A stretch of 40,460 nucleotides of DNA, from assembly GCA_019685555.1 (NCBI GenBank), contig JABFQN010000014.1, positions 1 to 40,460 of the forward strand. The letters are read 5' to 3'. Of this stretch, positions 3,026 through 20,660 are shown one piece after another; position 1 is the first letter of the stretch, and every line of letters starts with the position of its first letter. This stretch comes from Candidatus Bathyarchaeota archaeon A05DMB-3. GTDB taxonomy: Archaea; Thermoproteota; Bathyarchaeia; Bathyarchaeales; Bathycorpusculaceae. A program made the position numbers and the translations under genes. Under the pieces are notes generated by a model. The model was not told where the DNA came from, made no database searches, and was given only the letters and a program-made list of their open reading frames with translations.

Positions 3026-3901
3026 TTAGCCTATTTTTTCCATAACTTTGTCTATTTTCACTTTATGAAAGTCCAATGCCAGTTCTTTTGGCTCCACGCC
3101 TAGGCTTAGGCTTAAAAGTTCAGCGTAATGTATTATGGGCATGTTGTATTCCTCTTTATAAGTTGTCTTTATCAGCACTTGCCCAAGGTCCAGTGTTAGG
3201 AAGCAGAAGGGACAAAGGGTTGATATGCAGTCTGCACTTGCGTTATGGGCGTTTACAATCTTGTCTCTGGCTATGGCTAGCGCCACATCATCCGCGTAGC
3301 CTCTGAGAAGTCCGCCGCAGCATCTCAGCTTGTTTTTATACCATATGCTTTTGGCGCCTAAAGCCTCAATTAGAGTGTCAAATATGCGGGGTCGTTCTGG
3401 ATCGTCGAAGCGCAAAAGTGCACTTGGGCGTAGGAGGTGGCATCCTGAGAATGCTGCCACTTTAAGATTGTTTAGGGGTTTGATGATGTTTTGTTTTATG
3501 CTGTTTATGCCCACATCGTTCATTAAAACTTGTAGATAATGCCTCACTTCCTTGTTGCCTTTGAACTCTTTTCCGGCGTTTGCTAGAATTTTGTTCACCC
3601 TTTCTTTTAGTTCTGGCTTTTCTTTTAGTAGGCGGTTTGCCATTGCTAGGGATTCGAAGCATCCAGTGCACAGTGTTATCATGTTTAGGTCTGCTTCTTC
3701 TGCGAGGCAGATGTTGTAGGCGGCGACTGCTAAGCTTGTTTCCAAGTCTATGGACTGTAATGGTGGGGGAGCACAGCAAGTCATGTTTTCAAGGTCTATA
3801 AGTTCTATTCCAAGTTTTGTTAGGGCTTTTCTTGCTGAAAGTTCGTATTGGGGTTGTCGGGCTGGTATGGTGCAGCCTAAAAACAGTGCGTAACTTGTCA
3901 T
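3026..3901 (-). CDS. hdrB: Heterodisulfide reductase subunit B-like protein (HdrB)
   Basis: The 291-aa protein has two complete CCG domains, the sites of the noncubane [4Fe-4S] clusters of HdrB. The first uses C10, C42-C43 and C78-x-x-C81. The second, from about residue 150, uses a GCH, then RCCGG, then CPFC. HdrB reduces the disulfide substrate (CoM-S-S-CoB in methanogens) at the end of the bifurcation chain. No methanogenesis gene is visible here, so the true substrate may be another disulfide or acceptor. Its start overlaps the hdrC stop (ATGA), placing it last in the mvhG-mvhA-hdrA-hdrC-hdrB operon. The C-terminus (LSLGVEPKELALD) is typical of the family. Length is close to that of methanogen HdrB. 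Confidence 0.9.
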   Translation of the reverse strand: MTSYALFLGCTIPARQPQYELSARKALTKLGIELIDLENMTCCAPPPLQSIDLETSLAVAAYNICLAEEADLNMITLCTGCFESLAMANRLLKEKPELKERVNKILANAGKEFKGNKEVRHYLQVLMNDVGINSIKQNIIKPLNNLKVAAFSGCHLLRPSALLRFDDPERPRIFDTLIEALGAKSIWYKNKLRCCGGLLRGYADDVALAIARDKIVNAHNASADCISTLCPFCFLTLDLGQVLIKTTYKEEYNMPIIHYAELLSLSLGVEPKELALDFHKVKIDKVMEKIG

Positions 3902-4416
3902 TGCGATTCACCTTTTTTGAACATGATTTTGTCGAATCCCGTGGCTGAAAGAATTTTTTTCAAGGCTTCGATGCCTGTGGGCTTTAGCGGTGGCAATCCG
4001 TAGTCTGCCCTTTTCTTTTCTAGGAATTTCGATATAGGAACTATGCGTCCTTCGCTCATAAGTCCAGTTGCGAACTCTGTGTATATGGCTGGTATGTTCC
4101 CTTCGCTTATAGCGATGTTTCTCAAGGCGTATATAACATCTGCAATCTCGACTTTTTGGGGACATCGTTCTTGACAGTTGTAGCAGGAGGCGCAAAGCCA
4201 AATGGCATCTTCCGTGAGAACTTCGCCTCTTTGTCCAAGAAGGGCTAGTCGCAGGATTTGCCGTGGGTTGTAACGGTCCGTTGTTTTGGCGACTGGACAG
4301 CTGCTGGCGCATGTTCCGCATTGGTAGCAATAGGTGATGGTTTCTCCGCCCAGTTTGCTGGTAATCTCTCTTGCGAAGTCTACGGTTGAAGGTTTTTCTG
4401 GTTTTTCCTCAGCCAT
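3898..4416 (-). CDS. hdrC: Heterodisulfide reductase subunit C-like ferredoxin (HdrC)
   Basis: The 172-aa protein carries two classic [4Fe-4S] motifs: CYQCGTCASSCP at about residues 30-41 and CASCYNCQERCP at about 75-86. HdrC passes electrons from HdrA to HdrB. A helical C-terminal region follows (ALRNIAISEGNIP, then GRIVPISKFLEKKR), as in known HdrC. The gene lies 22 nt downstream of hdrA1 and overlaps hdrB by 4 nt. It is a standard member of the Mvh-Hdr operon. Confidence 0.9.
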   Translation of the reverse strand: MAEEKPEKPSTVDFAREITSKLGGETITYCYQCGTCASSCPVAKTTDRYNPRQILRLALLGQRGEVLTEDAIWLCASCYNCQERCPQKVEIADVIYALRNIAISEGNIPAIYTEFATGLMSEGRIVPISKFLEKKRADYGLPPLKPTGIEALKKILSATGFDKIMFKKGESQ

Positions 4417-4438
4417 TTTGTTCCCTCTACGTTTTGGT

Positions 4439-6850
4439 TTAGGCTAGTTGAAGGCTTCCCAGCTTTTCCACTCTTTCAGTCATCATCTTTGCTGCTTCGG
4501 CGAACTTGTCGCCTTCAATGTAGACTAGGTTGAACATTTCAAGTCTTTCAGGTTCTATGCCATACGCTTTGAGCAGCGTCTTTGCCAACTCCACTTTTTT
4601 ATGGGTTTTTTGGCTGCCTACTTCGTAGTGGCATCCGTCGGGTTTGCAGCCCACAACCATAACGCCTTGAGCCCCAGCCTTAAAGGCTTCGAGGATGTGT
4701 TGAACTTGAACTATGCCCGTGCATGGAACCCTTAAAACTCTAACGTTTGCTGGATAGCTCATCATAGCCATTCCAGAAGAGTCTATGGCGGCGTTGCCGC
4801 ATTCAGAACAGCTTATAGCTAACACTAACGGTTTAGATGTGCCGTTAATGGACAGCAAGGCTTTCATTTGGGCGGATATTTGACTTGGCTTTAGATGGCG
4901 AAGTTCTATGGCGCCCACTGGACATGTGCCAACGCAGACACCGCATCCTTCACATAAAAGTTCGGAAACTCGTGCAACGAAATGCCCTTCTCCTTTAGGT
5001 TCGAGGGTTATGGCGCCATACGGACATGTTACTGGACAGAACTCACAGTCGCCACAGTAATCCTCGTTCACAACAGCCACTTTCAAGTCTTTAACTATTT
5101 TGCCATTCATTAAGAATTTGGCTGCTTTAACGGCTGCTGAATGGGCGTGAAGCGAAGCTGTCGGAGCGTCCTTTGGGAAGGTGGCTCCTCCACAGAGGAA
5201 TATGCCTCTCCGCTTTGTTTCTGTGGGTCTAAGCTTGGCGTTGTATTCTTTGAAGAAGCCGTCTTGATCTAGTTCTATGCCGAGGATTTCCGCCAATTCT
5301 CTTGCATTTTCGGATGAAACCATGGCTGTGGCGAGAACCACAAGGTCTGCTTCAAGCTCCAGAAGCCTTCTTAGCAGTTCATCTTCAACTTCTACAACCA
5401 ATGTGTTTGTGGCTGGGTCATGGACAATTTCGGCGGGTCTTCCCTTGACGAATTTTACGCCTATTTCTCTTGCTCTTTCATAATAGTACTCATGTTCTCT
5501 TCCAGTTGTTCTGATGTCTATGTAGCATATGGTTACGTCTGTGTCTGGGAACGCCGATTTAATCAGTGTAGCATGTTTTAGGGATATCATGCAGCATATA
5601 CTCGAACAATACGGGTTCCAACGTCTATCCCGCGAACCCACACACTGGACGAAAACAATGCGTTTCGCCGGTTTTCCGTCAGAAGGCCTTACAACAGTTC
5701 CGTTTGTTGGACCGAAAGCATCAAGCATTCGCGCCAGTTCTAAATGTGTTACGATGTCTGGGTATTCGCCGTAATGATATTCTTTTATAACGCTTGGGTC
5801 GTATTCTCTAAAGCCTGTGGCTACGATTACGCTTCCAACGTTAAGGGTTAAGTGCTCGGTTTTCTGGTCTAATTCAATGGCTTTTGTGGGGCAAACTTCA
5901 ACGCATTTGGCGCATTCATGGAACTTGCATGCTTTAGCGTCTATGGCATAGACTGGTGGATAAACAAGTGGCTTGTTTACGTATATGGCTTTCCGGGTCT
6001 TAAGCTTAGCGTTATACTCGTCTGGAACTTCCACCGGACAAACGGACGTGCACAAGTCGCATGCCACACACTTCTTTTCGTTGACATATCTGGGTTTTCG
6101 TTCCACTGTAACTTTGAAGTTTCCAGGGGCTCCTTCAACCTTCACTATTTTAGAGTTTGTTAGAACGTTTAGGTTTGGAATTTCAGAGAATCCGGAACGG
6201 TAAACGCATTTTCTTGATGTTTGGGTTACAGTTTTAAGGTCTGAAGTTGGTGACTGGATGCAGATGGCACAGTCGTCTGTTGGGAAGAAACGCACGGCTT
6301 TGGCTGCTAAACCGCCGAGGAAAGGCTCCTTCTCCACTAAATAAACTTGGAAACCCATGTCAGCCAAGTCTTCTGCTGCTTGTATTCCAGCTATTCCACC
6401 GCCAATCACAAGAACGGATTTAACCGCTGGAAATTCAGTCTTCTCTATTGGCTCAAGAAGTTTAGCCTTCTCAACCGCTGCCAAAAGCATGGCTTTCGCT
6501 TTTTCCGTCGCCTCTTTAGGCGTGTCTTTGTGAGGCCATGCGCAATGGTCTTTAATGTCTAAAACCTCCACAAGATGAGGGTTTAACTCCGCCTCTTCCA
6601 CGGCTTTTGTAATAGCTATTTCGCTGATTTTTGGAATATTTTCTGCCACAACAACACGGTTTATCTTCTTTTCTTTAACGGCGTCCACTATAGCTTGGAG
6701 TCCTTGTCCCCGCCAGAACTCGCTGCCTCTTGCAACAAGTGCTACTCCATTGACGGTTTTCAGAAAGCCTGTTAAGGCTTCGAAGTCCAAGATTTTTGCG
6801 ATTTGTCCTCCGCAGTCTGAAAGGAAAACTCCAACTTTTGCTTCTTCCAT
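4439..6850 (-). CDS. hdrA: HdrA-MvhD fusion, bifurcating flavoprotein subunit (HdrA1)
   Basis: ATG 6850 is chosen because it gives the family N-terminus (MEEAKVGVF) 10 nt after the mvhA stop; a frame open to 6949 would run into mvhA. The protein is 803 aa. Residues 1-140 are the N-terminal domain, but of the four expected cysteines only C13 remains (S11, a tryptophan-containing stretch and an asparagine replace the rest). A thioredoxin-reductase-like FAD domain follows (VLVIGGGIAGIQAAEDL). Inserted ferredoxin motifs are CVACDLCTSVCP and CAKCVEVCP, and a C-terminal ferredoxin pair is CGDCEFCPVTCP and CEGCGVCVGTCP. An MvhD domain spans about 674-775 with C681, C684, C710, C735 and C740, the [2Fe-2S] set. 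HdrA bifurcates electrons between ferredoxin and HdrB. HdrA-MvhD fusions are known in other archaea. Confidence 0.9.
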   Translation of the reverse strand: MEEAKVGVFLSDCGGQIAKILDFEALTGFLKTVNGVALVARGSEFWRGQGLQAIVDAVKEKKINRVVVAENIPKISEIAITKAVEEAELNPHLVEVLDIKDHCAWPHKDTPKEATEKAKAMLLAAVEKAKLLEPIEKTEFPAVKSVLVIGGGIAGIQAAEDLADMGFQVYLVEKEPFLGGLAAKAVRFFPTDDCAICIQSPTSDLKTVTQTSRKCVYRSGFSEIPNLNVLTNSKIVKVEGAPGNFKVTVERKPRYVNEKKCVACDLCTSVCPVEVPDEYNAKLKTRKAIYVNKPLVYPPVYAIDAKACKFHECAKCVEVCPTKAIELDQKTEHLTLNVGSVIVATGFREYDPSVIKEYHYGEYPDIVTHLELARMLDAFGPTNGTVVRPSDGKPAKRIVFVQCVGSRDRRWNPYCSSICCMISLKHATLIKSAFPDTDVTICYIDIRTTGREHEYYYERAREIGVKFVKGRPAEIVHDPATNTLVVEVEDELLRRLLELEADLVVLATAMVSSENARELAEILGIELDQDGFFKEYNAKLRPTETKRRGIFLCGGATFPKDAPTASLHAHSAAVKAAKFLMNGKIVKDLKVAVVNEDYCGDCEFCPVTCPYGAITLEPKGEGHFVARVSELLCEGCGVCVGTCPVGAIELRHLKPSQISAQMKALLSINGTSKPLVLAISCSECGNAAIDSSGMAMMSYPANVRVLRVPCTGIVQVQHILEAFKAGAQGVMVVGCKPDGCHYEVGSQKTHKKVELAKTLLKAYGIEPERLEMFNLVYIEGDKFAEAAKMMTERVEKLGSLQLA

Positions 6851-6860
6851 CTTTTTCACC

Positions 6861-8318
6861 TTACCTTTTGAGCGTTTTGATAAGCCTTTTTTCGCTGTCA
6901 TAAATTTCCACCTCCAAAGGCATTTGGCCAACTGCAAAGTGAGTGGCACACGCGAAGCATGGGTCGTAAGCCCTAAAAGCCATTTCCACCATGTTCAGTA
7001 TTCCGTCTGTAACTTTGCCTTTCTTGATTAAGCCTTTAGCCGCATTTCTAATTGACATGCAGATGCTTGGCGCGTTGTTGACAGTCGCCACTATCAAATT
7101 GACTTTTTTAGCCAAAGCGTTCTCATCCAACTGGTAATGATGTATCAGCGTGCCCCTTGCAGCCTCCACAATTCCGACGCCTTCGCCTGGTTTGCCCGGC
7201 TTGTTGCGCACATTCTTGCTTGTTATTTCCGGGTCTGTTACAAGTTCTAGGGCGCGTTCAGCCGCGTATAAAAGCTCGATAAGCCTAGCCCAGTGATAAG
7301 CCAAGGTGTTGTGAACGGGTTTCCCGCCTAAGGTGGCGTACATCCGCTCATATTCTATTTGAGCCAACGGTGTGGCCATTCCATCCGCAGCATTAAGCCT
7401 TCCAAGGGGGCCTACGCGATATAATCCGCTTTCTGGACCATCCACAAGACCTTTCCAACCTATCTTCTTCAAGTATGGAAGCTTCACGTAGGTCCATGGT
7501 TCCACATGTTCTTCTATGACGTTTAGATACTCTTTGGGAGAGAATTTGACGGATTCCTTTCCTTCTGGGTCGACTACGCGGACGTTTCCATCGTAAAAGT
7601 TCACTTTGTTATTTTTGTCCACCAAGCCCATGTAATAAGTCTTCAGTGTGTATGGTTCGCTTTTGATTAGGTTTACGTAATCCGTGTTTTTCAACACTAT
7701 GTCGTCGAAAAGCTTCAACGAAAACTTGGCGAATTCAAGACAGCTTCTAACCATTCTTTCAATTTCTCGCCGCTCTTCCTCTGAAATTGGCCTTGCAAAT
7801 CCGCCTGGGATGCACGCGCTCACTGGGTGGGTTGCCTTGCCGCCTAAGATTTCGGTTATCTTTTGCCCATAAGCCCTATGCTTTATAACTTCCCTGCCGA
7901 TTTCTAGGCCAGCTTTTTCAATGACGCCTAAAACATTGCGTTTTTCTGGCGGTGCGTCTGGCCCAACCACAAAGTCTGGTCCGCCAAGATAATAGAAGTG
8001 CAAAGTATGGTCGTATAGGTAGTAGCCGCAGTACATTAATTCGCGAAGTTTTTTGGCTGGTTCAGGCGGTTCAACGTTAAAGCACGCATCGAGGGCTTTG
8101 GAGCTTGCCATGTGGTGGGCTACTGGGCAGACGCCGCAAATGCGTGTTGTTATTATTGGTAAGTCTTCAGCCCTTCGGCCTTCGCAGAATTTTTCAAAAC
8201 CGCGCAGTTCTGGGACTTGGAAGTAAGCCTCGTCTACGTCGCCTTCATCGTTTAGGAATATGGTTATTTTTCCGTGGCCTTCAAGCCTTGTGATCGGGTT
8301 TATAACTATCTCCTTCAT
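6861..8318 (-). CDS. mvhA: [NiFe]-hydrogenase large subunit, group 3 Mvh/Vhu type (MvhA)
   Basis: A 485-aa protein. The L1 motif RICGVCPVAHH gives C61 and C64, and the L2 motif DPCFACATH gives C454 and C457; these four cysteines hold the Ni-Fe site. The 25-residue tail after H460 is the part normally removed by a maturation protease, which is not seen in this window. It oxidises H2 in the cytoplasm and passes electrons through MvhG to MvhD. The start overlaps the mvhG stop (8315-8318, ATGA). The genomic partner hdrA1-mvhD directly downstream points to the group 3c Mvh-Hdr complex rather than an F420-reducing enzyme (no frhB here). Confidence 0.93.
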   Translation of the reverse strand: MKEIVINPITRLEGHGKITIFLNDEGDVDEAYFQVPELRGFEKFCEGRRAEDLPIITTRICGVCPVAHHMASSKALDACFNVEPPEPAKKLRELMYCGYYLYDHTLHFYYLGGPDFVVGPDAPPEKRNVLGVIEKAGLEIGREVIKHRAYGQKITEILGGKATHPVSACIPGGFARPISEEERREIERMVRSCLEFAKFSLKLFDDIVLKNTDYVNLIKSEPYTLKTYYMGLVDKNNKVNFYDGNVRVVDPEGKESVKFSPKEYLNVIEEHVEPWTYVKLPYLKKIGWKGLVDGPESGLYRVGPLGRLNAADGMATPLAQIEYERMYATLGGKPVHNTLAYHWARLIELLYAAERALELVTDPEITSKNVRNKPGKPGEGVGIVEAARGTLIHHYQLDENALAKKVNLIVATVNNAPSICMSIRNAAKGLIKKGKVTDGILNMVEMAFRAYDPCFACATHFAVGQMPLEVEIYDSEKRLIKTLKR

Positions 8319-9274
8319 TCGCGCACCACCCTCCTCCTCAAAATGGAATTAGCTAAGGAATATTTGTAGAAGGTTCCAACAGGGTCTACGACTTGCTCGA
8401 TGACTTTTGGGTCTGTAGCTATTGAAGCGAAAGCGCTTATCATGGCTGCGCCTTGGTCTGATACGCGGGGTGTTGGTCCACCGCATCCAGTGCACGGTAT
8501 ATTCGCCTTTAAGCATTGGGCGCCGCATCCGCCTCTTGTGGCTGGTCCCATGCATATGACGCCCTGGTCTAGGAAACATGTTTTGAAGTCGTCTTCTATT
8601 TCGTAGATTCGCTTTACCTGGGTTATTTTTCGTTCTTTCTTTTCTCTTGGGCACTCGTCGCAGACAGACTTGTTTAGCAGGAAGCTTGAGCCTTTAGGTG
8701 GAAGTTTCCCGTTTAAAATGGCGTCTAAAGCCTCAATTATCCTTGGAACTGGAGGGGGACAGCCAGAAATGAAATAGTCTACGTCGACGGTTTGCGCCAA
8801 GGTTTTGACAGTGTCGTAAAACTCCGGAAGCTCCAGCTCTCCTTGTGCAACTTTAAATCGGGTTTGAGGAGTTACGCTCTGCGGATTTCTTGTTGAAGGA
8901 GTTTCAAAGTAGGCTCTTTCAAAAATTTTCTCCCTATTCCACAAGTTTCCTAAGCCTATTACGCAACCGTCGCAGGCGCATGAGCCGAAAGCCACCAGCA
9001 CCTTTGCCTTTTGCCTTAACAGTTTTGCCATATGCTCGTTTTCTTCGGTTCTTATCGCGCCGTTGAAAAAGCAGACATCTATGCTCTTGTCGGGCATGGC
9101 TTCAACATCCTTGTATTTAATGTCCATGGCAACAGGCCAAAAGACTATGTCCGCTTTGGCTATAACGTCTAAGATTTTCTCGTTTATGTCTAAGACGGCG
9201 ATTTCGCATCCGCCACAGCTTGCAGCCCAATAAAATGCGAACTTCAATTTTTTGGGTTTCTCCATTCTCCTCAC
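8315..9274 (-). CDS. mvhG: [NiFe]-hydrogenase small subunit (MvhG)
   Basis: The 319-aa protein begins near the conserved AASCGGCEIA (C20, C23). Later cluster ligands are in GSCACDGC, SGCPPP, CDECP and the long C-terminal set CFLDQGVICMGP / GGCGAQC / IPCTGCGGP. The small subunit carries three Fe-S clusters from MvhA to MvhD. The start is GTG 9274 or ATG 9265. The AGGAG directly before 9265 sits only 1 nt away, too close to serve it, so GTG or leaderless translation is more likely. It is the first gene of the mvhG-mvhA-hdrA1-hdrC-hdrB operon. Confidence 0.92.
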   Translation of the reverse strand: MRRMEKPKKLKFAFYWAASCGGCEIAVLDINEKILDVIAKADIVFWPVAMDIKYKDVEAMPDKSIDVCFFNGAIRTEENEHMAKLLRQKAKVLVAFGSCACDGCVIGLGNLWNREKIFERAYFETPSTRNPQSVTPQTRFKVAQGELELPEFYDTVKTLAQTVDVDYFISGCPPPVPRIIEALDAILNGKLPPKGSSFLLNKSVCDECPREKKERKITQVKRIYEIEDDFKTCFLDQGVICMGPATRGGCGAQCLKANIPCTGCGGPTPRVSDQGAAMISAFASIATDPKVIEQVVDPVGTFYKYSLANSILRRRVVRE

Positions 9275-9416: not shown

Positions 9417-12251
9417 TTAACTTGTTGCGGCGGTTTCCGCCTCTTTATCCGCAGTTCTATCGACTTCCGTCTTTTCCGCGCTTACAGCGGCTTCCAACAG
9501 TTCTGTTTTCTCTGCAGCTTGAGGCAGTTGCTTCTCTTCCTTTAGGTTTAGGGTTCCTCTAATTGTGCCGTCTTCCATATACTTCAACTGAAAACCAAGA
9601 TTTTTCATGAGCTCTATTGCTTTTCGGTTTTCCGGCAGCATAATTCCATAAACTGTTTCTAAGCCGCGTTCCTTGCCTATTTCGATAACATAGTCTACAA
9701 GTTTTGTTCCTAAGCCTAAGCCCTGCCATGGGTCTGCCACAAGAAAAGCTATTTCGCCGGTTTTTCCATCAAGTTCTATGCTTACTCTGGCGGTTCCAAT
9801 TATTTTTCTTGCGCCGTTTTCTGTTAGTTCGGCGACTATGGCTATTTCGCGGTCATAGTCTATATTGCAATAGCGAACCCTAACTTCATGAGGCATGTGT
9901 TTAAGCGTTTGAAACAATTTATACCGAATGGACTCTTCTGAGCAGTTTTTGAACATTTCCAGCCATAAGGGCTCGTCTTCTGGTTTTATAGGCCTTAAAA
10001 GCACAGTTCTCCCGTCGCGAAGTTTCCATAAGGTTTCATACTTTTTGGGGTAGGGGCTTATCACCAAGTGCTGATGCGGTTCCACCTTCTTGAAGACTAG
10101 CTCCTTATCGATGATTACACGAGCATCTATGGCCAAGGCTTCTTTCTCATCTACAATTAACGGGTTTATGTCAATTTCCTTTATCTGCGGGAAGTCTATG
10201 AGCAACTGCGAAAAAAGAACCATCACCTCTTCGAGGCGTTTAATGTTGGCTGGAGGCATGTTCCTATAGCCTTTCAAAAGCTGATAGACCTTTGTCTCCT
10301 CCATCATCCTTCTAGCCAAAGTCTGGTTTAGCGGAGGCAAACCGATGGAAAAGTCTCTAAAAAGTTCAACTCCAACCCCGCCCATTCCAAACATAACTAT
10401 TGGACCGAAAACAACGTCCTTTTTTGCGCCTAGAATAACTTCATACCCGCGTTTCTTAACCATAGGCTGAACAGTAACGCCGATTATTTCCGCGTTTTGG
10501 TTATACTTTTTAGCGTTTTTCATTATGGTTCTAAAAGCTGCCCTAACCTCATCATCATTTTTAATGTCGAGGATTACGCCGCCCGCATCTGTTTTGTGAA
10601 TTATTTGGGGAGAAAGAACTTTCAAGACAACTGGATAGCCTATCCGCGAAGCTATAACAACAGCCTCATCCTCATCTTTGGCGATAAATGTTTTCACAAC
10701 TGGAAAGTTGTAAAACTCCAAAACTTTTTTGGCTTCAAACTCTGTTAATACTTCACGGTTTTCAAGGGCAGCATTCCGCATAATAGCCATTATTGGAAGC
10801 TTAGGCGGAGAAACATCCACAGGCAACTCTTCAGGCGTTTCGTAAAGCAGTTCAAGGTTACGCTTATACTGGTACATGTAAAGATAGGTTTTAACTGCTT
10901 GTTCAGGGGTGGAAAAAGTTGGAATTTCGTTTGCGTTGAATATGAAGTTGGCTTCTTCAACTGCTTTCCTACCCATAAAAGAGGTTAGTATCGTCTTGCC
11001 TTGCTGTCCTTTACTTTTTAAAAGTTCCACAATGCTTTTAGCGATTTCAACTGGTTCCGCCACTGCTTGAGCGGTGTAGATTAATAGGATTCCGTCGACA
11101 TTTTCATCGTTGAGGCATGCTTCCAAAACAGCCTTGTAACGGTCAGCTTTGGCGTCTCCTAAAATGTCAATGGGGTTGCCGTGGCTCCAGTAGGGCGGAA
11201 GAACACTGTTAAGGTAATCCATTGTTTGCTGGCTTAGCTTGGCAAGTTTGCCGCCCATACCTATCAAGGCGTCTGTAGCCATAACACCCGGACCCCCAGC
11301 GTTTGTGATTATCGCCAGGTTTGGTCCACGGGGCAGTGGCTGCAAACCTAAAACTTCAGCGCAGTTGAATAGGTCTGCTATTTCTTCGACGCGCACCACT
11401 CCTGCACGTTTGAACGCCGCATCGTAAACATTGTCTTCGCCAGTAAGCGAACCCGTGTGGGAGGCTGCTGCCTTGGCGCTTTCGCTGAACTTTCCAGCCT
11501 TAACAACAATTATTGGCTTTGTTCTTGCAAAATGTCTCGCCGCACTCATAAACTTCCTAGAGTTAGCCATGCCCTCAATATACATAAGAATGCTCCGCGT
11601 TTTCGGGTCTGTTCCAAAATAGTCTATTAAATCGCCAAAATCCACATCTATCATTGAGCCAACAGAAACGAAGTGGCTGAAACCCACATTCTCGTGAACC
11701 GCCCAGTCCAGAATCGCTGTCCCAAGCGCGCCGCTTTGGCTTATGAAGGCAATGTTGCCCGGTCTAGGCATCTTATTAATAAAGGTGGCGTTTAGGCGTA
11801 TGCTGGGACGAATAATTCCCAAACAGTTGGGCCCAATAATACGCAAATCGTATTTCTGTTTTATCTCGAGAATCTTGTCTTCTAAGGCTTTGCCTTCTGG
11901 TCCGGTCTCCTTAAAACCAGCACTTATAATGATTAATCCCTTTATTCCGGCTCTGCCACACTGTTCCACAACGTCTGGAACGGTTTTCGCCGGAGTGGCA
12001 ATAACTGCCAAATCAACAGTTTTTGGAAGTTGCAAAACGTTTTGGTAGGCTTTAACGCCTAAAATCTCCTTTTTACGAATGTTTACGGGGTAAACCTCAC
12101 CTTCAAACCCGGATTCAAGAAAATTCTTCATTAAAGCGCAGCCTACCGAGCCCTCCTCATCGCTTGCGCCCACAACAGCTACACTTTTAGGGTTAAAAAT
12201 CTTGTCAAGATGAAGGGTAACCAACCAGACACCAGCACTTTGAAAATTCAA
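9417..12251 (-). CDS. ADP-forming acyl-CoA synthetase (alpha+beta) fused to a GNAT acetyltransferase
   Basis: The 944-aa chain has, in order: a CoA-binding Rossmann domain (NPKSVAVVGASDEEGSVG, 20-110), succinyl-CoA-ligase-like domains with the phosphohistidine motif ASHTGSLTG (H265), an ATP-grasp beta part (about 495-715) with the second histidine in IHKTDAGGV, and a C-terminal GNAT domain (about 760-905). The GNAT acetyl-CoA loop is WQGLGLGTKL. ADP-forming acetyl-CoA synthetase makes ATP from acetyl-CoA in archaea. Bacterial Pat protein acetyltransferases share this order but often have a dead synthetase; here both histidines are kept, so synthetase activity is plausible. The tail (about 905-944) is low complexity, rich in Glu/Ala. 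The start is TTG 12251 or TTG 12224 (GGTG nearby). It lies between the Mvh-Hdr and Nfn-like gene sets, with gaps on both sides. Confidence 0.85.
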   Translation of the reverse strand: MNFQSAGVWLVTLHLDKIFNPKSVAVVGASDEEGSVGCALMKNFLESGFEGEVYPVNIRKKEILGVKAYQNVLQLPKTVDLAVIATPAKTVPDVVEQCGRAGIKGLIIISAGFKETGPEGKALEDKILEIKQKYDLRIIGPNCLGIIRPSIRLNATFINKMPRPGNIAFISQSGALGTAILDWAVHENVGFSHFVSVGSMIDVDFGDLIDYFGTDPKTRSILMYIEGMANSRKFMSAARHFARTKPIIVVKAGKFSESAKAAASHTGSLTGEDNVYDAAFKRAGVVRVEEIADLFNCAEVLGLQPLPRGPNLAIITNAGGPGVMATDALIGMGGKLAKLSQQTMDYLNSVLPPYWSHGNPIDILGDAKADRYKAVLEACLNDENVDGILLIYTAQAVAEPVEIAKSIVELLKSKGQQGKTILTSFMGRKAVEEANFIFNANEIPTFSTPEQAVKTYLYMYQYKRNLELLYETPEELPVDVSPPKLPIMAIMRNAALENREVLTEFEAKKVLEFYNFPVVKTFIAKDEDEAVVIASRIGYPVVLKVLSPQIIHKTDAGGVILDIKNDDEVRAAFRTIMKNAKKYNQNAEIIGVTVQPMVKKRGYEVILGAKKDVVFGPIVMFGMGGVGVELFRDFSIGLPPLNQTLARRMMEETKVYQLLKGYRNMPPANIKRLEEVMVLFSQLLIDFPQIKEIDINPLIVDEKEALAIDARVIIDKELVFKKVEPHQHLVISPYPKKYETLWKLRDGRTVLLRPIKPEDEPLWLEMFKNCSEESIRYKLFQTLKHMPHEVRVRYCNIDYDREIAIVAELTENGARKIIGTARVSIELDGKTGEIAFLVADPWQGLGLGTKLVDYVIEIGKERGLETVYGIMLPENRKAIELMKNLGFQLKYMEDGTIRGTLNLKEEKQLPQAAEKTELLEAAVSAEKTEVDRTADKEAETAATS

Positions 12252-12414: not shown

Positions 12415-14644
<2,230 letters not shown>

Positions 14645-14648
14645 TTTG

Positions 14649-15857
14649 CTAATCCCTCCCCTCAGGTTTTGTTGTTGGCGGCAGTGCCGCAACCTTCTTC
14701 ACAAACTTGTCAAGGTTTTCTTCAAAATTACCCGTCTGCCTTGGAGAAGCCTCGAAAAGTTCAAACCGTTCAAGCATATTCATTTTCTTCAAAACATCCT
14801 TTAACACGGTCATGTTTCTTTCAGCCGTGTCGCGTCCCTCTTGAAGCTTGCAGTCTTCAGCTGAGCAGACAACAGCCATAACACCGTCAAAGCCGTTTTG
14901 CAAAGCGTTGACAATGTGAACTGGGTCAAGTGCCTTAAAACATGGAACCTCCAGCGTAACAGCATTCCTTTTGAAGAATATGCCTTCAGGGTTGTCGAGG
15001 GCTGAAAACTCTGACCACTGACAGCAGAAGACAAGGATTACCGGCGATTTGCCTTCGGCTTTCAGCCTAACAGCGGAGTCACAGTAACGTTTCAAAACAC
15101 TTTCAAACTCGAAACCCTTGATTTGGATAGCATAGTGTGGACAAACTAAGGCGCAAGCACCGCATCCCATGCAATAGTCATAGAGAATTTTCGGTGTTGC
15201 AAAAGGTTCCGCTTCTATGGCTGCGTATGGGCATATGAAGACGCATTTGTCACAGCCTACACATTTAGCAGTGTCGTAAACAACTTTCCGAGAGTATTTG
15301 ATAACTCTAACAGCTTCTTTGCTAAAGCCCAACTCTTCGAGAACCCTTCTGCCGAGAAAAAGCCGCCTAGTATTGATTTTTGTGCCCTCTTTAAAGCGGC
15401 AAAAGGCATCTTCACACTGAACTGAAACAACGTTTTTTACGCCAAATCCTAAAACCTTGAAAATAAACTCTGTTGGAACCCTTCCAGAACATGGCAAACG
15501 TAATGGAATATAATCCTTTACGCGTAAGCCTTGCTCAGCCAAAATCTCTTCAACCTCACGCGTGGACGGAGAGTTTCCACGACACATCAAAACCAAAGTT
15601 TCAATTCCAGTCTTTTTATGCAAATCTTCAACATGTTTTACAAGGCTGTCATAGTCGTAGTAGGCTATTTCAATTGCAAAAACTGGACAAGCACTATAGC
15701 ATATTCCGCAGACTTGACATTTTTGGATGTCTATTTCCACCTTGCCAGTCTCAGCGTCCCGTTTTATAGCCTCGTAGGGGCATACCGAATAGCATATGGA
15801 GCAGCGGCTACAGTAATCTTGGTTTATACTTACTACAAGAGTTTGTTCCCCACTCAT
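14649..15857 (-). CDS. Tandem ferredoxin-MvhD protein: two copies of [2x(4Fe-4S) + MvhD]
   Basis: The 402-aa protein is an internal duplication. Unit 1: two [4Fe-4S] motifs (C16-C19-C22-C26 and C47-C50-C53-C57), then an MvhD-like domain (about 88-190) with C92, C123, C148 and C153. Unit 2: C199-C202-C205-C209 and C229-C232-C235-C239, then a second MvhD-like domain (about 273-375) with C278-C279, C306, C331 and C336. MvhD is the [2Fe-2S] electron link between hydrogenase and HdrA. Here it is bound to four ferredoxin clusters and placed upstream of NfnAB-like genes and in the same block as trxB and the HdrCB fusion, opposite hdrA2. An electron-transfer hub between an NAD(P)H module and HdrA2 is inferred. 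The exact family name is unknown to me. Confidence 0.8.
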   Translation of the reverse strand: MSGEQTLVVSINQDYCSRCSICYSVCPYEAIKRDAETGKVEIDIQKCQVCGICYSACPVFAIEIAYYDYDSLVKHVEDLHKKTGIETLVLMCRGNSPSTREVEEILAEQGLRVKDYIPLRLPCSGRVPTEFIFKVLGFGVKNVVSVQCEDAFCRFKEGTKINTRRLFLGRRVLEELGFSKEAVRVIKYSRKVVYDTAKCVGCDKCVFICPYAAIEAEPFATPKILYDYCMGCGACALVCPHYAIQIKGFEFESVLKRYCDSAVRLKAEGKSPVILVFCCQWSEFSALDNPEGIFFKRNAVTLEVPCFKALDPVHIVNALQNGFDGVMAVVCSAEDCKLQEGRDTAERNMTVLKDVLKKMNMLERFELFEASPRQTGNFEENLDKFVKKVAALPPTTKPEGRD

Positions 15858-15955: not shown

Positions 15956-16891
15956 TCACTGCCTATAATAATAGGGTCTCCGAATATACCCATAAGCTTC
16001 CAGAGCAGCGGTTATCCCCTGACCAACAGCCGCCCCAACCTGTTTAACCGGATGATTTGTAACATCGCCAGCAGCATAAACCCCAGAAATGTTGGTTCTC
16101 TGCCGAATATCAACAATAACATAGCCATGCTCATCCACCTCCACACCAGCCTCTTTGGCAAGCTGGCTATTGGGGATTTCACCAACTTGGACGAAGACTC
16201 CATCAATTGGCAACTCTCTAACCTCTCCAGTTTTGTTGTTGAATAAAATTGCCTTTTCCACAAGTTTTCCGCCTTTAATCTCCCTCAATTCAGTGTTCCA
16301 AAAAACTTCAACGTTGCCTTTCTCAAGCAAAGCCTTAACGCGGGCTTCTTCAGCGCGGAATGCATCTCTTCTATGGGCAACTTTAACTTCTGAGGCAAGC
16401 TCCGCCAAATAAAGGGCTGTCACCACAGCGGAGTTTCCGCCGCCAACCACTAGAACACGTTTATCCTTGAAAAGGGGTCCATCGCATATTCCACAGTAGC
16501 TCACCCCTCTTCCCTTAAACTCCTTTTCACCAGAAACTCCCAACTCGCTGTAGCTTGAGCCAGAGGCAATTATGACAGCCCTAGCTTTATAGACGCCTTT
16601 ATCAGTTTTCACAATTTTCTCCTCTCCCTTTAAGTCCAAGTCCATAACCTTTTCAAACTCGTGGATTGCGGTGCCAAGTTTTCTACACTGAGCCACAATT
16701 TTCTGCGCAAGTTCAGCTCCGCTTATTCTCTCAAAACCGGGGTAATTCTCAATCACTGGCGCGTCTCCAAGAGTCCCGCCGGCAATTTTCTCCTCTATGA
16801 TTAGCGCCTTTAGCCCACTTCTGGCAGCATAAATTCCAGCAGTCAAGCCCGCTGGACCAGCGCCAATAATCATCAGGTCCCATATTTCCAT
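15956..16891 (-). CDS. trxB: Thioredoxin reductase-like flavoprotein
   Basis: A 311-aa protein with FAD motif [16 protein letters not shown], redox pair C133-G-I-C136-D (usually CATC), NADPH motif VVGGGNSAVVTALYL with HRRDAFRA, and the closing GVYAAGDV. These are all features of low-Mr thioredoxin reductase. The CGIC active site still keeps the following Asp. It begins 12 nt after a 46-aa zinc-ribbon gene and lies inside the redox island, so its partner could be a thioredoxin elsewhere or a protein of this island. Confidence 0.9.
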   Translation of the reverse strand: MEIWDLMIIGAGPAGLTAGIYAARSGLKALIIEEKIAGGTLGDAPVIENYPGFERISGAELAQKIVAQCRKLGTAIHEFEKVMDLDLKGEEKIVKTDKGVYKARAVIIASGSSYSELGVSGEKEFKGRGVSYCGICDGPLFKDKRVLVVGGGNSAVVTALYLAELASEVKVAHRRDAFRAEEARVKALLEKGNVEVFWNTELREIKGGKLVEKAILFNNKTGEVRELPIDGVFVQVGEIPNSQLAKEAGVEVDEHGYVIVDIRQRTNISGVYAAGDVTNHPVKQVGAAVGQGITAALEAYGYIRRPYYYRQ

Positions 16892-18284: not shown

Positions 18285-20660
18285 ATGCCGGAGGAGAAAG
18301 AGGCTAAAAACCCCCGTGTAGGCATTTTCGTCTGTGAATGCGGTGGAAACATTGGCGATGTTGTTGATGTTAAGGCTGTTGTCGAAGCCGTTAAAAACTG
18401 GAAAGGTGTTGCAGTAGCCAAATACCACAAGTATCTATGCTCAAAACCAGCCCAAGAAATGATTGCCGAAGCTATAAAAAAGGAAGATTTAGACAGAGTT
18501 GTCGTAGCTTCCTGCACGCCACGAATGCATCTTCCCACCTTCCAAAGCGTTTTGGAGCGGGCTGGATTAAACCCCTACATGCTTGAATTCGTAAACATTC
18601 GGGAACAAGATTCATGGGTTCACGGACCCAAACCGAGCCCAGAAGCAACACGGAAAGCGATAAGCCTAATTAGGGGAGGTTATGAACGCAGCCTAGAACT
18701 TGAGCCGCTGGAAACGATAAGCGAAAAAGGCTCGCGGGAAATCCTCATAATAGGCGGCGGCATAGCAGGCATAACAGCCGCCCTTGAACTTGGATATTTA
18801 GGTTTTAAAGTCCACCTTGTTGAACGGAAACCAAGTATAGGCGGAAACATGGCGAAACTCACAAAGGTTTTCCCCACTCTGGACTGTGCCCAATGCATTT
18901 TAACACCCCGCATGGCTGAAGTCGGCAGAAACCCAAACGTGAACTTGCTAACCTATGCGGAAGTGCAAGACGTAAGCGGACGCCCAGGCAACTACACAGT
19001 TCGCGTTTTCATGAAGCCCAGAGGCGTTGACATTGAAAAGTGCAGAAGCTGCGGCGTCTGCGCCAAAGTCTGTCCCGTAACCGTTCCAGACGAGTTTAAC
19101 GAAGGCTTATCCCAGCGAAAAGCCGCCTACATAGAGTTCCCACAAGCAGTTCCCTCAGCTTACGCAATAGACTTTAACGCATGCACAAAATGTGGAAAAT
19201 GCGAGCAGTTCTGCCCAGCAAAAGCCATAAACCTAAACGATAATGGCAAAATGGTTGAATTAAACGTCGGCGCCATAATTTTGGCTACTGGCTATAGGCT
19301 TTACGACGCGCGGAAACTCGAAAACTATGGATATGGCATATACAAAGACGTCATAACAATGATGGATTTGGAAAGGCTTACATCTGCTACTGGACCAACT
19401 GGAGGCTACGTCAAAAGAGCTGACGGAACCGACGTGCACAAAATCGCCATCCTCCTCTGCGCAGGCTCAAGAGACAAAAATTACATTTCCTACTGCAGCC
19501 GAATATGCTGCATGTACGCGCTTAAACAAGCTTTTGTGCTCAAAAAAATGCTCGGAATAGATGTGACCATCTATTATACAGACATTAGGGCTACTGGAAA
19601 AGGCTATGAAGACTTGTACTGGCGAGACCAAGAAGCCGGAGTAATGTTTATTCGAGGAAAAGTGGCTGAAATCTGGAAAAACAACAATGGAAAACTTGTC
19701 GTTCAAGTTGAGGACACATTGACTGGCGAGACGAGGGAAGACGAGTTTGACATGGTGGCTTTAGCAACACCCATGGTTCCACCAGACGGATTAGGCGAAC
19801 TTGCAGGAAAAATGAAAGTGGCAATAGGGGAAGACGGTTTCGTAACGGAGAAACATCCAAAACTCGACCCAGTGGACTCGCTGGTCACAGGAATTTTCGC
19901 GTGTGGATGCGCCTTAAGCCCAAAAGACGTGCGGGACACAGTTTCAGACGCTTTAGGCGCGGCGGCACGAGCAGCACTATTCCTAAAAAGCGAGTATGTA
20001 ACCACAAGCCCAGAAAAAGCCTTCGTCATCGCAGATCTTTGCAATGGCTGCAGTGAATGTGTAAAAACATGTCCAGTAAATGCTATAACAATGCAAGAAG
20101 GCAAAGCCAAAATCGACCCCTTCCAATGCGTAGGCTGCGGTGCGTGTATTCCAGTCTGCCCACAAGAAGCCATAGACTTTAGGAATGCTACATCAAGGCA
20201 GATAACCGCCACCATAAAGGGAGTGCTAGAAGACAAAACACCGGAAGAGGTTCGAATAATAGCTTTTGTTGATAAGAATGTTGGGTATACGGGCATGGAC
20301 TTTTTGGGACTTGACCGCACAAACTATCCGGAAAACATCCGCATAGTCACCGTTCCATCAACCGCCATCCTTGGAAAAAAACACATCCTAACAGCCTTCG
20401 CCTATGGAGCTGACGGCGTGCTAGTCATCGAAGGAAACGAGGAAATAGACGAAAAATTCACCAAAAAACGGATGATTGAAATGGGAAGAGAAATTGCATC
20501 CTTCGGAATAGAAAACATGCGACTGCGGTACAGCTACGTGCCACTACCAGTCTACAAGAAAGCTGCAGAACTCTTCACAATGTTTACAGACAGAATTAAA
20601 AAATTCGGACCACTGGCAGAGGAAAAACGCAAAAGCATAAAACAGAAACTGCAAATATAG
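18285..20660 (+). CDS. hdrA: HdrA paralogue with cysteine-free MvhD-like tail (HdrA2)
   Basis: A 791-aa protein from ATG 18285. The N-terminal domain keeps all four cluster cysteines (C17, C19, C52, C77). An FAD domain follows (ILIIGGGIAGITAALEL), then inserted ferredoxin motifs CRSCGVCAKVCP and CTKCGKCEQFCP, and a C-terminal ferredoxin pair CNGCSECVKTCP and CVGCGACIPVCP. The last 140 residues have the MvhD layout (VRIIAFVDKNVGY, VTVPSTAILG, ADGVLVIEGNEEID), but every cluster cysteine is replaced, so no [2Fe-2S] site can form. HdrA bifurcates electrons via FAD. This copy probably receives electrons from a separate protein, for which the tandem MvhD-ferredoxin protein is the obvious candidate. 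Confidence 0.9.
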   Translation: MPEEKEAKNPRVGIFVCECGGNIGDVVDVKAVVEAVKNWKGVAVAKYHKYLCSKPAQEMIAEAIKKEDLDRVVVASCTPRMHLPTFQSVLERAGLNPYMLEFVNIREQDSWVHGPKPSPEATRKAISLIRGGYERSLELEPLETISEKGSREILIIGGGIAGITAALELGYLGFKVHLVERKPSIGGNMAKLTKVFPTLDCAQCILTPRMAEVGRNPNVNLLTYAEVQDVSGRPGNYTVRVFMKPRGVDIEKCRSCGVCAKVCPVTVPDEFNEGLSQRKAAYIEFPQAVPSAYAIDFNACTKCGKCEQFCPAKAINLNDNGKMVELNVGAIILATGYRLYDARKLENYGYGIYKDVITMMDLERLTSATGPTGGYVKRADGTDVHKIAILLCAGSRDKNYISYCSRICCMYALKQAFVLKKMLGIDVTIYYTDIRATGKGYEDLYWRDQEAGVMFIRGKVAEIWKNNNGKLVVQVEDTLTGETREDEFDMVALATPMVPPDGLGELAGKMKVAIGEDGFVTEKHPKLDPVDSLVTGIFACGCALSPKDVRDTVSDALGAAARAALFLKSEYVTTSPEKAFVIADLCNGCSECVKTCPVNAITMQEGKAKIDPFQCVGCGACIPVCPQEAIDFRNATSRQITATIKGVLEDKTPEEVRIIAFVDKNVGYTGMDFLGLDRTNYPENIRIVTVPSTAILGKKHILTAFAYGADGVLVIEGNEEIDEKFTKKRMIEMGREIASFGIENMRLRYSYVPLPVYKKAAELFTMFTDRIKKFGPLAEEKRKSIKQKLQI

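Follow-up and report, generated by a model that had tools for sequence, protein, structure and literature searches.

MvhD is known as the domain that plugs HdrA into hydrogenases or formate dehydrogenases, and the question raised by the locus analyzed here is what an archaeal protein that carries this domain twice, next to genes for an NfnAB-like enzyme, might connect. The window, i.e., the whole stretch of DNA that was analyzed, is contig JABFQN010000014.1 of Candidatus Bathyarchaeota archaeon A05DMB-3 (GCA_019685555.1), with a length of 40,460 nucleotides. On its minus strand (14649..15857) lies an ATG-started gene for a protein of 402 aa, hereafter DUP, with the layout [2x(4Fe-4S) ferredoxin + MvhD]x2. 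A preliminary description had read this frame as two ferredoxin-MvhD repeats with all cluster cysteines kept and six predicted Fe-S clusters, and had proposed that, next to nfnA/nfnB-like genes and opposite an HdrA with a dead MvhD, it works as a long-range electron hub.

The tandem layout was recovered by Pfam and by alignment. Four Fer4 stretches and two stretches of FlpD/MvhD (PF02662) were detected. For FlpD/MvhD the complete protein scored 128.2 bits against a cut-off of 22.3, and the halves scored apart gave 89.0 and 44.4 bits, both above that cut-off. From the N-terminus, and all on the minus strand, the parts are ferredoxin half 1 (residues 9-66; 15660..15833; Cys 16/19/22/26 and 47/50/53/57), MvhD half 1 (residues 83-187; 15297..15611; Cys 92/123/148/153), ferredoxin half 2 (residues 192-248; 15114..15284; Cys 199/202/205/209 and 229/232/235/239) and MvhD half 2 (residues 274-392; 14682..15038; Cys 279/306/331/336). 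The ferredoxin halves were assigned by Pfam and alignment, and MvhD half 2 by Pfam, PDB and Foldseek. Alignment with canonical MvhD showed that the C-terminal portion of the domain is missing from MvhD half 1. In the sequence comparison with the PDB, half 2 matched MvhD chains with 1.5e-9 and half 1 with 3e-6, and the top Foldseek matches of an AlphaFold model built with 33 homologues (pLDDT 83.5, pTM 0.79) were the MvhD chains 5odc_D, 5odh_D, 8rvu_F and 7bkb_F. The best NCBIfam match was the C-terminus of HdrA2 (NF040770 positions 574-774, its ferredoxin and MvhD part; 2.8e-49 for the whole of DUP, in two stretches). Half 2 thus resembles the ferredoxin-MvhD C-terminus of HdrA2, or type Ia HdrA (PMC5296606, PMC12054007), but HdrA2 has a FAD (thioredoxin-reductase-like) domain and DUP has none, no FAD family being found among its Pfam matches. 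Since this domain is missing, DUP itself is unable to bifurcate, and it can be described as the ferredoxin-MvhD entry module present twice without FAD (cf. PMC12350162). That DUP is a truncated HdrA2 was ruled out, because the gene has no flavin domain, is intact and full-length, and is conserved in dozens of genomes.

The canonical MvhD domain carries five or six cysteines in the motifs FxC-NWC, CSGR, GC and DC. Each MvhD half of DUP retains four of these cysteines but has lost the one of NWC. The four CxxCxxCxxxCP motifs are all complete, and the 24 candidate ligands, i.e., eight ferredoxin ligands and four MvhD cysteines per half, show no variation in homologues that include these positions, as the preliminary description would have it for this one protein. 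Since four ligands suffice for one [2Fe-2S] cluster, six clusters are the natural prediction, well founded by motif, although the loss of the NWC cysteine and the short C-terminus of MvhD half 1 qualify it. MvhD/FlpD (PF02662; 5ODC, 7BKB, 8RVU) is the [2Fe-2S] connector of the Mvh-Hdr, Fdh-Hdr and Elp-Hdr complexes, and DUP shares the domain by sequence and fold, with the four cysteines in the same places, so that docking on MvhG would be expected. However, the known connector is a single domain of ~140 aa, either alone or C-terminal in HdrA, whereas DUP has two copies, each preceded by a 2x(4Fe-4S) ferredoxin.

The age of the doubling was then considered. The two halves of DUP were 26% identical when aligned (blastp E 8e-15), and a profile comparison also matched their MvhD parts on their own (hhalign E 2e-9, probability 96%). 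The halves were placed in a tree together with HdrA and MvhD modules, which is unrooted and carries a long-branch warning, and across the family each half formed a single clade (100/100 and 99/94); hence the doubling is old and single. Such divergent halves, each monophyletic across the family, rule out a recent internal duplication or an assembly artefact. The module may have been doubled by duplication or by fusion of two modules, as the unrooted tree is compatible with both.

When the same domain order was searched for in other archaea, 57 distinct homologues turned up, belonging to Bathyarchaeia and to a minority of Thermoplasmatota. A scan of the genomes of 84,980 species with the peptides of the window, which reaches close relatives only, yielded 35 loci. 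Almost all of these were recorded as Bathyarchaeota or Bathyarchaeia, and the remaining ones belonged to Methanomassiliicoccales, Thermoplasmata and two 'Euryarchaeota' bins. By profile, in a sampling that covered Thermoproteota and Thermoplasmatota, DUP was present in 23 of 300 Thermoproteota, all in the window's own class, and in 11 of 293 Thermoplasmatota; in the order to which locus L043 (recorded as Methanomassiliicoccaceae archaeon UBA472) belongs, 17 of 147 genomes had it. In the DUP tree the Methanomassiliicoccales proteins were nested inside Bathyarchaeia. One homologue of 297 aa (L041, 9883-10912) lacks ferredoxin half 1 and the beginning of MvhD half 1, through either truncation or a frameshift, and still precedes nfnA-nfnB and hdrC-hdrB.

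Other MvhD proteins were also seen. One is fused to a C-terminal helix-turn-helix (PF12840) beside an hdr-mvh operon (L005; G000:C18:226036-226383) and is possibly a redox-sensing regulator, and frames in G266, G281, G305 and G306 that contain MvhD and are about as long (250-269 aa) are candidate fusions. The Thermoplasmata genomes G303 and G304, which hold loci L038 and L040, have 21 and 22 MvhD-domain matches, an expansion in which many frames are about 260-280 aa long and, in one 30-kb stretch of G304, are spaced about 4 kb apart.

The gene neighbours were read from the 57 distinct proteins, for 55 of which the downstream side was readable. In the window, nfnA (13808..14644, minus strand), which encodes an NfnS-like FAD/NAD(P)H/[2Fe-2S] subunit, has its probable ATG at 14644, 4 bp past the DUP stop, and is followed by nfnB (12415..13836, minus strand) for the NfnL-like bifurcating-FAD subunit. 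Their best PDB matches were 5jca_S (2e-84) and 4ylf_B (5e-185), i.e., NfnA was closest to the NfnI small subunit of P. furiosus and NfnB to T. maritima NfnB, which bears out the nfn-like labels of the preliminary description. The same adjacency was found in 50 of the 55 loci, with gaps of -121 to 17 bp (negative values being overlaps or a matter of start-codon choice), and nfnB came after nfnA wherever readable, the edge case L115 excepted. Arg196 of NfnB, the equivalent of T. maritima R187, which contacts the bifurcating FAD (PMC6405883), was invariant (50/50), and the eight Fe-S cysteines were kept in 49-50 of 50. The products of the adjoining genes are therefore clear NfnA and NfnB, for which a bifurcating transhydrogenase activity is predicted. 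They share the bifurcation Arg and the Fe-S ligands with the known NfnAB/NfnSL (4YLF, 5JCA), but characterised Nfn uses free ferredoxin, whereas here a multi-cluster partner is co-encoded and, in one order, a hydrogenase as well. In Bathyarchaeia, nfnB is often present where DUP is not. A thioredoxin-reductase-like gene on the other side (15956..16891, minus strand) is upstream of DUP in 30 of the 57 homologues only, which ruled it out as an obligate part; it was not seen beside DUP in Methanomassiliicoccales, and it adjoins nfnAB without DUP in G142.

So constant an nfnAB linkage, far more constant than the linkage to mvhGA, would suit a protein that acts as a tethered ferredoxin of NfnAB only, i.e., a multi-cluster store or relay to soluble partners with no specific hydrogenase contact. 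Two Thermoplasmata loci also fit such a general low-potential relay: 2-oxoacid oxidoreductase genes lie upstream of DUP in both, in L038 with nfnAB downstream and in L040 on the upstream side only. However, a relay of this kind leaves unexplained why two MvhD copies, the docking domain for partners of the MvhG, FdhB and HdrA type, have been kept, and four of the 55 loci, those of the distant homologues L037, L087, L094 and L095, carry metV-metF (PF12225, PF02219) after DUP, with neither nfn nor hdrA beside it. In the HdrABC-MvhD-MetVF complexes of Moorella and Sporomusa (PMC9430772) MvhD connects the flavoenzyme, and the DUP-metV-metF loci differ from them in having the doubled ferredoxin-MvhD protein in place of a single MvhD and no adjoining hdrA. 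In the window, metVF is not beside DUP. The tethered-ferredoxin explanation also has no place for the hydrogenase operon and the co-distribution with a special MvhA described below, and we regard it as rather unlikely.

The HdrA to which the preliminary description had linked DUP exists. This HdrA2-like protein (18285-20660, plus strand) ends in an MvhD that keeps the fold motifs and has no cysteine in any of the 13 homologues (13/13), and such a conserved dead MvhD perhaps has a structural role. DUP might then be a hub that passes electrons from NAD(P)H to this HdrA and to an HdrCB fusion, and in some Bathyarchaeia loci the two genes are indeed near each other. The distribution argues against it: the HdrA was found in 11 of the 300 Thermoproteota, of which 4 were DUP-positive and 7 DUP-negative, so that it was missing from 19 of the 23 DUP-positive genomes, and one of the four homologues present was just 50% identical. 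Furthermore, a close homologue near DUP was always on the opposite strand, and none was found beside DUP in Methanomassiliicoccales. By this distribution the dead-MvhD HdrA is a neighbour in some lineages and was ruled out as the DUP partner, and the hub that feeds it appears very improbable. Rather than a general long-range hub, the comparisons suggest an adaptor that connects MvhGA hydrogenase with NfnAB, with MetVF and 2-oxoacid oxidoreductase variants.

The evidence for the hydrogenase comes mainly from Methanomassiliicoccales. In the window, mvhG (8315..9274) and mvhA (6861..8318), both on the minus strand, encode the small and large subunits of a [NiFe]-hydrogenase of the group 3c type, as assigned by Pfam, NCBIfam and cysteine conservation and, for MvhA, also by a tree. 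The Ni-Fe cysteines of MvhA (two CxxC, C61/C64 and C454/C457) and the cluster cysteines of MvhG (C99, C172, C205, C208, C233, C241, C250, C254, C261 and C264) were present in 14 of 14 sequences. In all eight readable loci of the Methanomassiliicoccales type the order is DUP-nfnA-nfnB-mvhG-mvhA-hycI, and neither mvhD nor hdrA was found near this operon in any of the eight. In HdrABC-linked Mvh, mvhD and hdrA accompany mvhGA; the DUP operon is without both, whereas the separate canonical copy in the same genomes has them. The Methanomassiliicoccales with the operon have exactly two MvhA, the DUP-operon copy being 68-73% identical to the window MvhA and the second 56-59%, and in the six genomes examined the latter was always in the classical order hdrA-mvhD-mvhG-mvhA. 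When 68% or more identity to the window MvhA was taken to define the Bathyarchaeia type, this MvhA was found in 16 of the 17 DUP-positive and in 0 of the 130 DUP-negative genomes of the 147-genome order (Fisher p about 2e-20, without correction for relatedness). This MvhA shared a contig with DUP in 15 of the 16 and lay about 4.4 kb downstream where both genes were intact; in the seventeenth genome DUP lies on a 3.2-kb contig. In the MvhA tree the operon copies nested with the mvhG-mvhA-hycI copies of the Bathyarchaeia G172 and G184 (100/98, 98/94), apart from the canonical copies of the same genomes. As both DUP and its MvhA nest inside Bathyarchaeia, the DUP-Nfn-Mvh cassette was probably transferred as one.

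For most Bathyarchaeia loci, no mvhGA could be seen in the vicinity of DUP. The mvhG-mvhA-hycI genes lie directly upstream of DUP-nfnA in G201; in G172 they have no mvhD or hdrA beside them, and DUP-nfnA-nfnB is elsewhere in the genome. A close MvhA (E below 1e-200) was found in 22 of 23 DUP-positive Thermoproteota versus 9 of 27 genomes of their class that have no DUP, a comparison confounded by kinship, and it was not found in G285 (91% complete), which has DUP-nfnAB. One operon, nfnA-nfnB-mvhG-mvhA in G019 (L129 4667-9436), has no DUP, MvhD or HdrA nearby; it supports the pairing of Nfn with Mvh, with DUP not always beside that pairing, and so DUP may not be required. In the window itself, a gene for an ADP-forming acyl-CoA synthetase with a fused GNAT domain (9417..12251, minus strand), found between nfnB and mvhG in close relatives, separates mvhGA from nfnB, and mvhGA is followed by genes for an HdrA2 with an intact MvhD, HdrC and HdrB (3026..6949, minus strand, by Pfam and NCBIfam), another candidate partner. 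Split from nfnB and adjoining HdrA2, the window MvhGA may therefore serve two partners.

Such neighbours could also mean that DUP connects NfnAB with HdrABC, whether MvhGA takes part or not, in a supercomplex of Nfn, Mvh and Hdr that would couple NADPH, H2 and disulfide. In JdFR-07 (L030) the genes DUP-nfnA-nfnB-mvhG-mvhA-hdrA2-hdrC-hdrB all run in one direction, hdrC-hdrB comes after nfnB in L041 and in L112-L114, and in G059 and G154 an HdrA lies directly before nfnA, in the position of DUP (the one of G059 ends in an intact ferredoxin-MvhD module). Most DUP loci, however, and the Methanomassiliicoccales operon have no adjoining hdr genes, and we consider a supercomplex of this extent quite improbable.

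The reading that we favor, with moderate confidence, is that DUP replaces MvhD as the adaptor and joins the bifurcating NfnAB to a group 3c [NiFe]-hydrogenase, for H2-linked NADP(H) chemistry. The observations are the domain make-up, the invariant ligands, the single ancient doubling, the gene order, and the co-occurrence and apparent co-transfer with MvhGA, and from them we infer a physical complex, its subunit contacts, the cluster types, the activity, its direction and the bifurcation. DUP would be the electron-transfer adaptor subunit of the NfnAB complex, its MvhD domains would dock on MvhG as MvhD does in the Mvh-Hdr complex, and its ferredoxin domains would exchange electrons with NfnB in place of free ferredoxin; because half 1 is truncated, one of the two MvhD domains may not dock on the hydrogenase. 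The HdrA of G059, with its ferredoxin-MvhD end directly before nfnA, is in line with this role. A DUP-NfnA-NfnB-MvhG-MvhA assembly could thus couple H2 to the NADP(H) and NAD(H) pools, with electrons probably bifurcated or confurcated at the FAD of NfnB, e.g., H2 + NADH + 2 NADP+ -> 2 NADPH + NAD+ + H+, in either direction. Some other lineages seem to use the adaptor for MetVF or for a 2-oxoacid oxidoreductase instead.

Within the open-licence literature searched, neither a tandem ferredoxin-MvhD protein, which the preliminary description had also thought new, nor an Nfn-Mvh operon or complex was found. The type III HdrA and the ANME-1 HdrA-NfnB fusions (PMC12054007, PMC9012536) are another proposed union of Nfn with Mvh/Hdr, including Bathyarchaeota with mvhADG, but there NfnB/GltD is inserted in HdrA, whereas here a separate two-subunit Nfn would be joined through DUP. 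We tentatively extend the adaptor reading to a further bifurcating [NiFe]-hydrogenase, in which MvhGA, joined via DUP to NfnAB, would bring H2, NADH and NADPH together in one soluble complex with the flavin in NfnB rather than HdrA, and which would have arisen in Bathyarchaeia before some Methanomassiliicoccales acquired it as an H2-to-NADPH route. Neither an F420-dependent NADP reductase over the cut-off nor an FrhB/FdhB C-terminal domain was found in any of the nine DUP-positive Methanomassiliicoccales tested, and this is a gap that such a route would close. For three cultured or enriched Methanomassiliicoccales strains, each genome was described as having a single mvhA and a single mvhG (PMC4153887), and these strains therefore appear to be without the cassette.

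DUP is a marker gene for an apparent transfer of this cassette between phyla. If the adaptor reading is true, a doubled plug between a hydrogenase and Nfn would be a new wiring of electron bifurcation, would account for some Methanomassiliicoccales having mvhGA twice, and would give F420-poor, H2-dependent archaea a testable route to NADPH.
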